DNA of 39,435 bases from Lysobacteraceae bacterium (lineage in GTDB: Bacteria; Bdellovibrionota; UBA1018; JAGTJX01): assembly GCA_023657465.1 (NCBI GenBank), contig JAGTJX010000003.1, positions 1 to 39,435 on the forward strand, read 5' to 3'. Under the pieces are notes generated by a model. It worked only from the letters and a program-made list of their open reading frames with translations. It was not told where the DNA came from and did not search any database. The translations under genes and the position numbers were made by a program. Of the stretch, positions 18,881 through 36,834 are shown piece after piece; positions within the stretch are counted from its first letter, which is position 1, and each line of letters begins with the position of its first letter.

Positions 18881-18999
18881 GTGGACACAAAATAGGTTAG
18901 AATAAACCGAAACCACTGAAAGGGTAACGAATGAGACAGGTAGCGAGGAAGTATACAGATGAGTTTAAGAAACAAGCAGTAGATCTAGCCCAAGAGTCC
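18879..18999 (+). mobile_element. left end and OrfA start of an IS3-family element (remnant)
   Basis: The sequence GGTGGACACAAAATAGG near 18880 begins an IS3-like end. An AAAGGG site is followed by ATG 18931 encoding MRQVARKYTDEFKKQAVDLA, the standard opening of IS3-family OrfA (HTH_Tnp_1). After 23 codons the sequence switches abruptly to the 3' part of the ISL3 transposase at 19000. No OrfB, right end or target duplication remains. Confidence 0.75.
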
Positions 19000-19293
19000 G
19001 ATTCTATAGAACTCGTGGAATCAAACCCGCAGAAATTTACTTCCAAAAACTCATCGACCAACTCGCTCTCACAGAAAATCCTCACTTAAAAACATTCAGA
19101 CGCACTCTCATCCGATGGAGAAATGAAATCTTGAACTTTTTTAAATACCGTCTTACAAACGCCAGAGTCGAAGGCTTTAACAACGTAGCAAAGGTAATAA
19201 AAAGAAGAGCTTACGGGTTTAGATCCTTCGAAAATTATAAACTTCGTTTGCTAAATGCTTGTTCTTAAAGAGTTGATGTGGGGCTTCCCACTA
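19000..19293 (+). mobile_element. truncated ISL3-family element (3' end only)
   Basis: From 19000 the sequence appears identical to 28696-28989 at a constant offset of 9,696 bp. It covers the last 89 codons of the ISL3 transposase (to TAA 19266-19268), including the catalytic Glu segment NARVEGFNN, and the right terminal repeat GCTTCCCACTA. The 5' two thirds are missing, so the copy cannot move by itself. The identity continues past the terminal repeat into the flank, so this is not an independent transposition. Confidence 0.9.
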
Positions 19294-33582: not shown

Positions 33583-33744
33583 ACCAAATCGATTGCATGG
33601 ATTCCGGAGAGATTTTTTAAGTTTCATAATGAAATGTTAGAAAAAGCTCAGGCCAAAGAGATGATTGACTAAGGCTTTGTGGGTGTAAATCACAAGCATG
33701 TGTTTTACGCGCAGTGCTCACTTTTTAAGACTAAAAGATCTTAG
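33583..33744 (+). pseudogene. gene remnant with an in-frame TAA
   Basis: After the DoxX gene a frame reads TKSIAWIPERFFKFHNEMLE and continues to AKEMID, stops at TAA 33670-33672, then continues in the same frame as GFVGVNHKHVFYAQCSLFK to TAG 33742-33744. Both halves look like one native protein tail. No start codon or ribosome-binding site is seen, so only the 3' end of a lost gene remains. The family is unknown. Confidence 0.4.
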
Positions 33745-33747
33745 TAC

Positions 33748-34647
33748 TTAAAAACTCAAACGAACCGCAAAAGCAGCGCCATCGACGGATTGACCACTTC
33801 TGGTTGCCACCGGGGTAATACCAAAATTTAACGAATTGCTACTGACTCGCGACTTCAGTGTGTGATATCGATTATTTAATGTCGGCGGAGTAGCCCAGAC
33901 ATCGATAATTTCATACACTCGAGAACCAACAAATAAAAAGAATCCGGCAACTGCAAGCCCGCCTCCAGAGCATTGAAGCGATTTACTCCCCGATACCCCT
34001 AAAGTATTTAGGCATTTCTCAGTCCCCGGTGTCATCATTCCGATGGATCCAATCTCTCCCAAGTATCTACCCTGAATTGCCTGCCCTATTCACAGGCCCG
34101 CGACGGTACCGACTACGCCTCAATCTACGACTTTATCACTAGAGTTTTTATTGATGGCTGCAAGGCGTTGGTCTAATACTTGGTACTGACCAAGGTGAGA
34201 GTTTTAACTTTCATCACCGCACTTTTTATCGCCTTTAAAGAAATTTGAACAAACGTATTCTATGTATTCTCTATGTTTTTTCATTTCCGCAATGATTTGA
34301 GCTTTGTCTTTTTCATATACAAGTGCGTCTTCAATAATTTTTTGTTCTGTTGTATTTTTAGTAAGAAATTTTGAGTTACTGGGAGTTCTTAAAAATGCTC
34401 TCACTGCAGTCATTGGAATTCTAAGAGTCAGAGACCCACAGGTTCTAAAAGGAACCTCACCTTTAGGACACAAGCGCCAATGCAGGGCTCCGTTCTCTTC
34501 ATAAAAATATGAAATCTTATTGACTCCGAAATTAGCGTAATCTCCTTCGACTTTAAATTGATCTGTAGCCGTATCGATCACTTCTTCTGCTTGACTGAAT
34601 GAACCCGATATACCCAAGAATACAACTGAGACTTAAAAAGTTTTCAT
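33748..34647 (-). pseudogene. 300-codon exported-protein gene with four in-frame stops and no frameshift
   Basis: GAGGA lies 5 nt before ATG 34647, which opens MKTF-stop-VSVVFLGISGSFSQAEE, a signal peptide broken by TAA at codon 5. The frame then runs 137 codons to TAA 34206-34204, through LGQYQVLDQRLAAINK to TGA 34122-34120, and through GVVGTVAGL to TGA 34092-34090. It ends with IGQAIQGRYLGEIGSIG and the membrane segment AVAGFFLFVGSRVYEIIDVW, finishing VDGAAFAVRLSF. The glycine-zipper plus QAIQGRY, and the later GSRVYEIIDVWA, fit a secreted or envelope family I associate with Bdellovibrio. No indel is needed over 900 bp. It is dead unless stops are read through. Confidence 0.75.
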
Positions 34648-34731: not shown

Positions 34732-35544
34732 TCACACCCTAAAAAAATCAATGCAGAACGAATGCAGTTCTTCTTCCTTGGAATCTCGGATGAGGTTTTT
34801 TGCATTCTCGATTGCTTTGACGAGTACGGATTTGATCTGTGTGACGTCTTCGCAAGAAATACTCACTACAGACGAGTAGTGGAGAGAATCTAGGAAGTCC
34901 TCTCGCTCGAGAGACTGAATGGCTTGCAATCTCCAATTGATGTGGTGCTTAGTAATCATCGCAGAATCATTGCCTAGATGAATGCGAGTCGTGCCCACGA
35001 TGTATTTTCCGTTCTTCAGTTCTGCTAATCCCAAGTTCATCATGAATTCCAGAATCTCGGTCACGCGTTTCAATGAGAGTTTCAGGTGACGAGCGATTTT
35101 CTCTTTGGTTTGGAATTCTGGAATCGTGAGTAAGATGTGGACCGCAACGTAGTGCCACGAACTATAGAATATGACTTGGTCTTCACGAGAGAGTTCAGAC
35201 TTCACACCCAAGCGATCTTTAAGGACTAATCGTTTTGCGCGTGCTTTTTCGATTTGTGTTTTCAGGCGTGCGCGTAGCTTCGGTGTTCCTGCACGCTGGA
35301 GTTGTACGAGGAGTAGGAAGTAATCCGCTTGCTCGGTCGAGTGTCCTAGGAGTTCGTTTAGTCCCTCTGCTTGTTCGAAGCTCAAGTTAGATATGCCCTT
35401 CAGTACTTGGGAGACGTGGGAGACGGGACTGTGAATCGTCTCTGCGATTGAGACGCGTAATCCGCGGCCTTTATTGGGACGGGATGCGATCCAGGCCAAT
35501 AAATACTCGCGATAATCCGAATAATCGAAAATTTCTTTGTCCAT
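34732..35544 (-). CDS. TIGR02147-family transcriptional regulator
   Basis: The 270-residue protein opens with IFDYSDYREYLLAWIASRPN and the HTH region SIAETIHSPVSHVSQVLKGI, the hallmark of the TIGR02147/DUF4423 family. That family is found mainly in Fibrobacter and Bdellovibrio-type bacteria, often in many copies. A second winged helix follows near residues 145-195 (KEKIARHLKLSLKRVTEILE), then the family tail, where FLDSLHYSSVVSISCEDVTQ is typical. It is divergent from the exported protein gene at 35689 and probably regulates it. Two CGTCAAATTT repeats 30 bp apart lie in the shared intergenic region. Confidence 0.9.
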   Translation of the reverse strand: MDKEIFDYSDYREYLLAWIASRPNKGRGLRVSIAETIHSPVSHVSQVLKGISNLSFEQAEGLNELLGHSTEQADYFLLLVQLQRAGTPKLRARLKTQIEKARAKRLVLKDRLGVKSELSREDQVIFYSSWHYVAVHILLTIPEFQTKEKIARHLKLSLKRVTEILEFMMNLGLAELKNGKYIVGTTRIHLGNDSAMITKHHINWRLQAIQSLEREDFLDSLHYSSVVSISCEDVTQIKSVLVKAIENAKNLIRDSKEEELHSFCIDFFRV

Positions 35545-35688: not shown

Positions 35689-36834
35689 ATGAAAGTAAGT
35701 TACGTTTTAAGCATGTTTTTATCGATGTCTCTCTTTTTAGGTGTACAGGCCTGGAGTGGTGGAGACCATAGCGGTGGTGGTACTGCGGTGGTTTGCAGAA
35801 ACGCAGATCACACGATTAGGTCCGCTCAGCTAGTAGATACTTATGAGTCTCTCGATGCTTTAGGACTAGAGTTTTGGGAGTTCAAGCAACCTGGTACAGG
35901 TATGCCGCGGATCGAAAAGACAGGCGATGCTGTGAAGGACGAAGCTCTACTGGATCAGGAATATAATCTCATCTTGAATCAAAAGTTTTTGGATCTTCCT
36001 TATAATGCGAGTTTGAAGATCCTACTCATGCACAACATGAAATTTGTTCGCAATCAGATCAATTTTTCTTACACAAAGGCGAAGGAGAAATTTCCAGGAA
36101 CGTACATTGTCGCCCCTGCTGATTTAGGTGGCGGTCGAGTAGTGCATATTCCTTATGGTTGCCAGCCAGAATTTGCAGCCTTCTACAGAAGCAAAAAATC
36201 TGGATTTAATGACACTCTCGAAGTGAATCCAGATATTTGGGATGCATTTAGTATCACTGACCGAGTTGCTCTGATCGTGCATGAATCAATCGGTCCGCTG
36301 AGACGTATGTTCTATAGTGATAAAACTACTGAGCTCACTCGCGATCATACTGCGAGACTCGTGATCTTAGCCCATGATCGCACAAGCGTGTATTCCTATT
36401 GGTCGATGACTGTAGACATGGATGATTATCGCAGAATCGTTCCATCTAGAGAGATGAATCATAACAATACTTATGTTCGTCTGAGTATGATCGAGGGGCG
36501 TAAGGCTGCAGTTTTCTTTAAGCTCTATGATGAGAAAGGCAATTCCATTAAAAATAAAAACATTAAAGTAAAAGCGGGAAAATCTACTGGGATCTTTGCA
36601 CTAAGTCCTCGTTCTGAATGGAGCTCCATGGAGATCAAAGTGTTTGGAGCCAAGGGGAATCGTGAAGATGATCGCCTTGAGGCTAAGATCCAGCTCGAAG
36701 TTCTCTCTCAGTCAGGAGAACTCATGACACAAGGAATTCTCGGAACTAAAAGCCGAGTTAGAATGCAATCTGCAAGTGTTAATGATTTGAATGGTGACCC
36801 AGTCACAAAACCTTTCTCTTCAGTAAAATTTTAA
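35689..36834 (+). CDS. exported protein of unknown function, likely target of the TIGR02147 regulator
   Basis: A strong GGAGG precedes the ATG by 9 nt. The signal peptide (MKVSYVLSMFLSMSLFLGVQ) is followed by a Gly-rich, Cys-containing start (GGDHSGGGTAVVCRNADHTI) and QLVDTYE. This resembles the GGG-x-x-V-V-C...L-D-x-Y-E beginning of exported proteins common in Bdellovibrionota. The segment DRVALIVHESIGPLRR has a His-Glu pair like the HEL/HEx helix of those proteins. A C-terminal domain (residues about 240-370) is beta-rich. It acts outside the cytoplasm; the function is unknown. It ends at a hairpin terminator shared with convergent tyrS. Confidence 0.8.
   Translation: MKVSYVLSMFLSMSLFLGVQAWSGGDHSGGGTAVVCRNADHTIRSAQLVDTYESLDALGLEFWEFKQPGTGMPRIEKTGDAVKDEALLDQEYNLILNQKFLDLPYNASLKILLMHNMKFVRNQINFSYTKAKEKFPGTYIVAPADLGGGRVVHIPYGCQPEFAAFYRSKKSGFNDTLEVNPDIWDAFSITDRVALIVHESIGPLRRMFYSDKTTELTRDHTARLVILAHDRTSVYSYWSMTVDMDDYRRIVPSREMNHNNTYVRLSMIEGRKAAVFFKLYDEKGNSIKNKNIKVKAGKSTGIFALSPRSEWSSMEIKVFGAKGNREDDRLEAKIQLEVLSQSGELMTQGILGTKSRVRMQSASVNDLNGDPVTKPFSSVKF

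Follow-up and report, generated by a model that had tools for sequence, protein, structure and literature searches.

A probable membrane-protein pseudogene with four in-frame stops and no net frameshift in a bacterium related to Bdellovibrio

Near-complete bacterial pseudogenes, as described in excerpts of PMC13345370, keep a near full-length frame that carries in-frame stops and have intact homologues elsewhere. In-frame stops have also been described, in the excerpted text of PMC7918605, as occurring widely in bacterial genes whose dN/dS lies below 1, a precedent for stops that may be read through. Here we compare with these systems a reverse-strand frame from a bacterium related to Bdellovibrio, which very probably represents an ordinary pseudogene: it is homologous to intact genes in 36 other genomes, and it is disrupted by four stops and the absence of eight residues. 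As far as the excerpts of PMC13345370 go, the combination of four stops and an in-frame deletion without a net frameshift is uncommon, yet still within that kind. With the genes in the excerpts of PMC7918605 the locus shares in-frame stops in a gene-like frame, but its stops were found in no relative among the 36 other genomes matched in a search of 368 genomes of the phylum, and the relatives are too distant for dN/dS.

The interrupted frame and its relatives

Within the window (the whole stretch of DNA analysed, 39,435 nucleotides) the frame has the following features:

33748–34647, reverse strand: very probable pseudogene, 300 codons with the final stop counted, for a predicted membrane protein with a signal peptide and a glycine zipper
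34633–34635, reverse strand: in-frame TAA at codon 5
34204–34206, reverse strand: in-frame TAA at codon 148
34120–34122, reverse strand: in-frame TGA at codon 176, where all 29 aligned relatives have glycine
34090–34092, reverse strand: in-frame TGA at codon 186, likewise a glycine in all 29 aligned relatives

The initial annotation had noted a single frame preserved from the ATG at 34647 to the TAA at 33750–33748 (reverse strand) despite TAA, TAA, TGA and TGA, and our reading of the sequence bears this out. A coding model trained on 520 open reading frames (ORFs) of this genome, each 200 codons or longer, scored codons 6–147, 149–175 and 187–299 in frame at 0.10, 0.22 and 0.04 nats per codon, respectively, with both alternative frames in these three long stop-free segments lower, at −0.34 to −0.72. 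The short segment of codons 177–185 scored −0.02, still above its alternative frames, and the first five codons, stop included, allowed no distinction (−0.95, against −0.99 and 0.19 in the other frames). Since the in-frame score exceeds that of the other frames in the stop-free segments, the frame is genuine, with no net frameshift after codon 5. Relative to 129 short coding runs, which are skewed high because the same model chose them (median 0.152; 10%, 5% and 1% points 0.091, 0.076 and 0.061), the first segment lies in the range of normal genes and the C-terminal segment falls below the 1% point. Judged by sequence comparison, the frame is a true gene remnant, its C-terminal half matching intact relatives with a best E of 3.9e-27. 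Translation from the ATG would stop after four codons, and no functional protein is expected.

The search of the phylum identified a relative in 37 of the 368 genomes, its own included, mostly of codons ~158–299, and in 35 of the 36 other genomes the match is free of any stop. A candidate second broken copy (G203), listed with two TAAs, was rejected on finding that the match overruns the end of an intact gene (read in L025; the ORF ends AYSF). The nearest relative shares 42% identity over the match, and, apart from the genome itself, best-match, class and phylum searches returned nothing from its genus or family. Named records with relatives are metagenome assemblies, titled as Bdellovibrionales (3 of 12), Bacteriovoracaceae (3), Bdellovibrionaceae (1), Halobacteriovoraceae (1) and broader names (4). 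Its own genome (2.83 Mb, 4 contigs, 96% complete) yielded no paralogue, and a plasmid collection gave no match; a search of the window with Rfam yielded one tRNA and nothing else.

Alignment of 29 of the 36 relatives, those for which loci were returned, reveals a common layout: the family members begin with a signal-peptide-like stretch, vary in their N-terminal part and share a conserved core (GG..GT...GxGIGH..QGRY...GWIFT.GE, followed by RIWEIVDVW..PP..N). For the N-terminal part, no credible relatives emerged: codons 6–147 matched one of 58 genomes in the class search, namely its own, and codons 25–147 matched 108 of 368 genomes in the phylum search at E up to 1, where the best match outside its own genome (E 0.0057) is taken as chance; Pfam returned nothing for this part at E up to 5. 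An AlphaFold model of one of the intact relatives (24 of 29 in the alignment), L004, consists of helices and two C-terminal strands (mean pLDDT 82.0, pTM 0.63), and the ancestral product is predicted to have been a signal-peptide-bearing, mostly helical, glycine-rich membrane protein.

Among described families, and with a threshold of E 0.01, the P13 family porin model (NF033724) is weakly matched by 4 of 24 intact relatives (best E 3e-6), and that of Borrelia membrane protein P13 (PF05628) by 7 of the 24 (best E 3.4e-5). The best-matching relative, L004, falls below both cut-offs (27.2 against 100 bits for the NCBIfam model; 24.3 against 25 for Pfam), and the window's own pieces matched nothing. 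ExtJ (NF040942) matches 2 of the 24 (best E 2.4e-6). Any kinship to P13 would be distant at best, and a literature search for P13 together with porin, Borrelia and Bdellovibrio returned nothing. Structure searches with L004 gave no Foldseek match at E 0.001 or better and a best VIA-align Z of 6.5, with none at 8 or more, a null result that shows no relationship and no novelty.

Missing codons and the Fur-family neighbour

The frame had initially been described as free of indels, as was an adjacent remnant at 33583–33744. This claim of nonsense-only decay in two neighbouring genes does not survive when the relatives are aligned. Every one of the 29 aligned relatives has eight codons that are absent here between Y195 and L196, an in-frame loss of 24 nt:

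34062–34063, reverse strand: junction of the in-frame 24-nt loss, where the eight-residue consensus xxxGWIFT of 29 of 29 relatives is absent

At the protein level, LGEIGSIGMMTPG around the gap aligns with AGELGSIGLMIAG of the relative L008 at 8 of 13 identical positions, with 3 to 8 of 13 identical across the 29 relatives. An alignment of DNA alone placed the gap elsewhere, with TGG-ATC out of frame; we judge the protein-level placement preferable, as a single event would suffice. The eight missing codons probably represent a deletion in this lineage.

Some conserved residues are substituted as well. These missense changes comprise W245Y (tryptophan in 29 of 29 relatives), H189Q (histidine in 27 of 29, glutamine in one intact relative, L010), Y173V (tyrosine in 26 of 29) and F242S (phenylalanine in 25 of 29). 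In the columns with a conservation of at least 90%, the window retains 17 of 24, the fewest of the 30 sequences, with two of the others occupied by stops, three in the gap and two missense. Next lowest are L007 (18 of 25) and L030 (21 of 25), and the other 27 sequences keep 22 or more. Because L007, an intact but divergent member, retains nearly as few conserved columns as the pseudogene, our argument rests on the stops and the missing codons rather than on the missense changes.

The adjacent remnant proved to be a piece of a Fur-family regulator on the opposite strand:

33585–33735, forward strand: C-terminal part of a Fur-family regulator, spread over two frames that change near 33613–33617, with ~125 N-terminal residues absent
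33670–33672, forward strand: in-frame TAA in the Fur-family fragment, position read by eye

The in-frame TAA that had been reported here is present, accompanied by a change of frame and a large loss. The fragment corresponds to the last ~41 residues, at 38–51% identity to nine relatives, and a phylum search with it matched 35 of 368 genomes, its own included; one of these relatives (L116) matches FUR at E 3.9e-32, and the fragment alone has no Pfam match. A short piece, HQIDCMDSGEIF, precedes it in another frame, which places the frame change. For the ~125 N-terminal residues, the window gave no convincing match (the remaining ones E 0.02 or weaker). In place of complete DNA-binding and metal-binding FUR domains in one open frame, the locus has the C-terminal residues and the out-of-frame short piece, some three quarters of the gene having been lost. 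The Fur-family remnant is in advanced decay, further than the membrane-protein pseudogene. Elsewhere in the genome there is one Fur-family gene without internal stops (C2:639281–639643).

Explanations for the stops

Ordinary decay would account for these observations as follows. The membrane-protein gene would have ceased to function no later than its first stop. It now carries four nonsense mutations, a 24-nt deletion that keeps the frame and substitutions of conserved residues, and by chance no net frameshift. Recent loss, one of the options offered by the initial annotation, fits the survival of the frame, of some codon texture and of most conserved residues, and the loss was probably fairly recent. 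The contrast it drew with ordinary bacterial decay fails, given the deletion and missense changes here and the frame change and large loss in the neighbour. In neutral simulations of decay, four stops required a median of 85–130 substitutions, and the chance of no frameshifting indel was 0.21–0.33, 0.04–0.10, 0.007–0.02 and 0.0007–0.0025 at indel:substitution ratios of 0.02, 0.05, 0.1 and 0.2, respectively. These figures are suggestive only: four stops without a net frameshift would be modestly unlikely under neutral decay, depending on the indel:substitution ratio of the genome, and surprising if that ratio is high. The excerpts of PMC13345370, PMC3091646 and PMC3899985 contain no numerical ratio of nonsense to frameshift changes. 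A single such gene, chosen by a reader for its appearance, is not remarkable. The locus also carries a caution, in that a nonsense-only look gained from a single sequence dissolved against 29 relatives, and it documents that a lineage related to Bdellovibrio has lost two genes, one for a membrane protein and one of the Fur family.

An alternative is that base-level errors in the assembly produced the stops, the gene being intact in the organism. A single-base change could indeed give each of the four stops, but such errors would need to cluster at this locus, as a coding-model survey of 799 kb found no other in-frame stop lacking a nearby start codon, and single-base errors explain neither the absent 24 nt nor W245Y, a substitution that takes two bases. 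We consider this explanation very unlikely, and the general base-level sequencing error that had been suggested is not supported by the survey, which misses degraded genes. Each of its seven in-frame stops is a TAA that has a start codon no more than 12 codons away, and these are read as boundaries of neighbouring genes. Since the survey flagged neither the stops of the pseudogene nor the Fur-family fragment, it gives no base rate for such loci.

The survey also returned 88 frame changes, of which 75 were marked as normal-like. Inspected by eye, the other 13 comprise two that look like frameshifted genes, one ISL3 transposase remnant, two copies of one insertion sequence, and overlapping neighbours or unclear cases, which suggests that frameshift decay also occurs in this genome. 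The two genes, named by eye as alcohol-dehydrogenase-like (L093, C2:404556) and MscS-like (L109, C4:396039), are seemingly split by frameshifts that represent either decay or assembly error. On the forward strand of the window, positions 18931–19268 preserve a C-terminal part of an ISL3 transposase (PF01610, E 1.4e-22), interrupted by a frame change. Two nearly identical two-frame elements (L101, C4:225301–226706; L111, C4:437603–439008) are apparently copies of one insertion sequence with overlapping frames.

It is less likely again that parts of the gene survive as short genes, at 34204–34617 (TTG start, 137 aa) and 33748–34062 (TTG start, 104 aa). Both ORFs are open, and the former was called as one coding run at 0.10 nats per codon; its TTG, however, falls within the signal-peptide-like stretch, and by eye no ribosome-binding site is visible, and the latter lacks the GG..GxGIGH..QGRY half of the conserved core and has a poor coding score. 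Neither piece, searched nearly as given, matches Pfam at E 5.

More improbable still is that the stops are read through, whether by a suppressor tRNA, UGA read as glycine, selenocysteine or leaky termination, such that a full-length protein is made. The frame is kept across all stops, and both TGAs replace invariant glycines; the chance of at least two of four stops falling on invariant glycines is 0.002, and that of both TGAs doing so 0.004, post hoc figures that assume an earlier codon at each stop. We leave this coincidence as an unexplained oddity. The translation apparatus of the genome speaks against read-through. None of the 38 tRNAs found carries a UCA, UUA or CUA anticodon (tRNA model with 150 of 191 candidates scored and anticodons from ARAGORN, in a genome 96% complete), so that the search for suppressor tRNAs proposed at the outset came back empty. 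Ten weak matches to tRNA-Sec, none above the cut-off, all lie at ordinary tRNAs (150 of 253 candidates scored). Release factor 2 is present (prfB, 496.7 bits against a cut-off of 370), and TGA terminates 189 of 520 long ORFs, beside 215 ending in TAA and 116 in TAG. Two different stop codons would have to be read, and the product would still miss eight residues of the conserved core.

UGA is read as glycine in NCBI genetic code 25. The likeness of the present locus to that code lies in UGA at conserved glycines of the pseudogene, but here UGA ends ordinary ORFs, release factor 2 is retained and none of the tRNAs found is a glycine tRNA with anticodon UCA. The genome shows neither a stop-reading tRNA among the 38 found nor a codon abandoned as terminator with its release factor lost, and the suppression raised by the initial annotation is not supported. 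Least probable of all is a living locus in which UGA is misread as glycine at both invariant positions and the UAAs are leaky, yielding a small amount of a shortened glycine-zipper membrane protein, perhaps under stress, which, if true, would explain how the frame outlived four nonsense changes.

TIGR02147 genes near the locus and elsewhere

Upstream of the pseudogene lie two further genes:

34732–35544, reverse strand: intact TIGR02147 / DUF4423 gene, 84 bp upstream of the pseudogene
35689–36834, forward strand: divergently oriented gene that begins like a signal peptide and weakly resembles two of the ORFs that follow other TIGR02147 genes

The product of the divergent gene matches these two ORFs at E 0.002 and 0.006–0.01. 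Ten TIGR02147 matches in the genome correspond to nine genes, two matches sharing one frame, and a literature search for the term TIGR02147 found nothing. The pseudogene may formerly have been the partner of the adjacent TIGR02147 regulator.

All eight other TIGR02147 genes (L125–L132) are directly followed by an ORF on the same strand; by eye, six of these ORFs have signal-like starts and six contain glycine-rich motifs of the AGGxGGNGG type, as if each TIGR02147 regulator had its own secreted partner. In one case (L129, reverse strand 2292–2998) the partner reads as two ORFs overlapping by 4 bp, which represent either coupled genes or a split gene.
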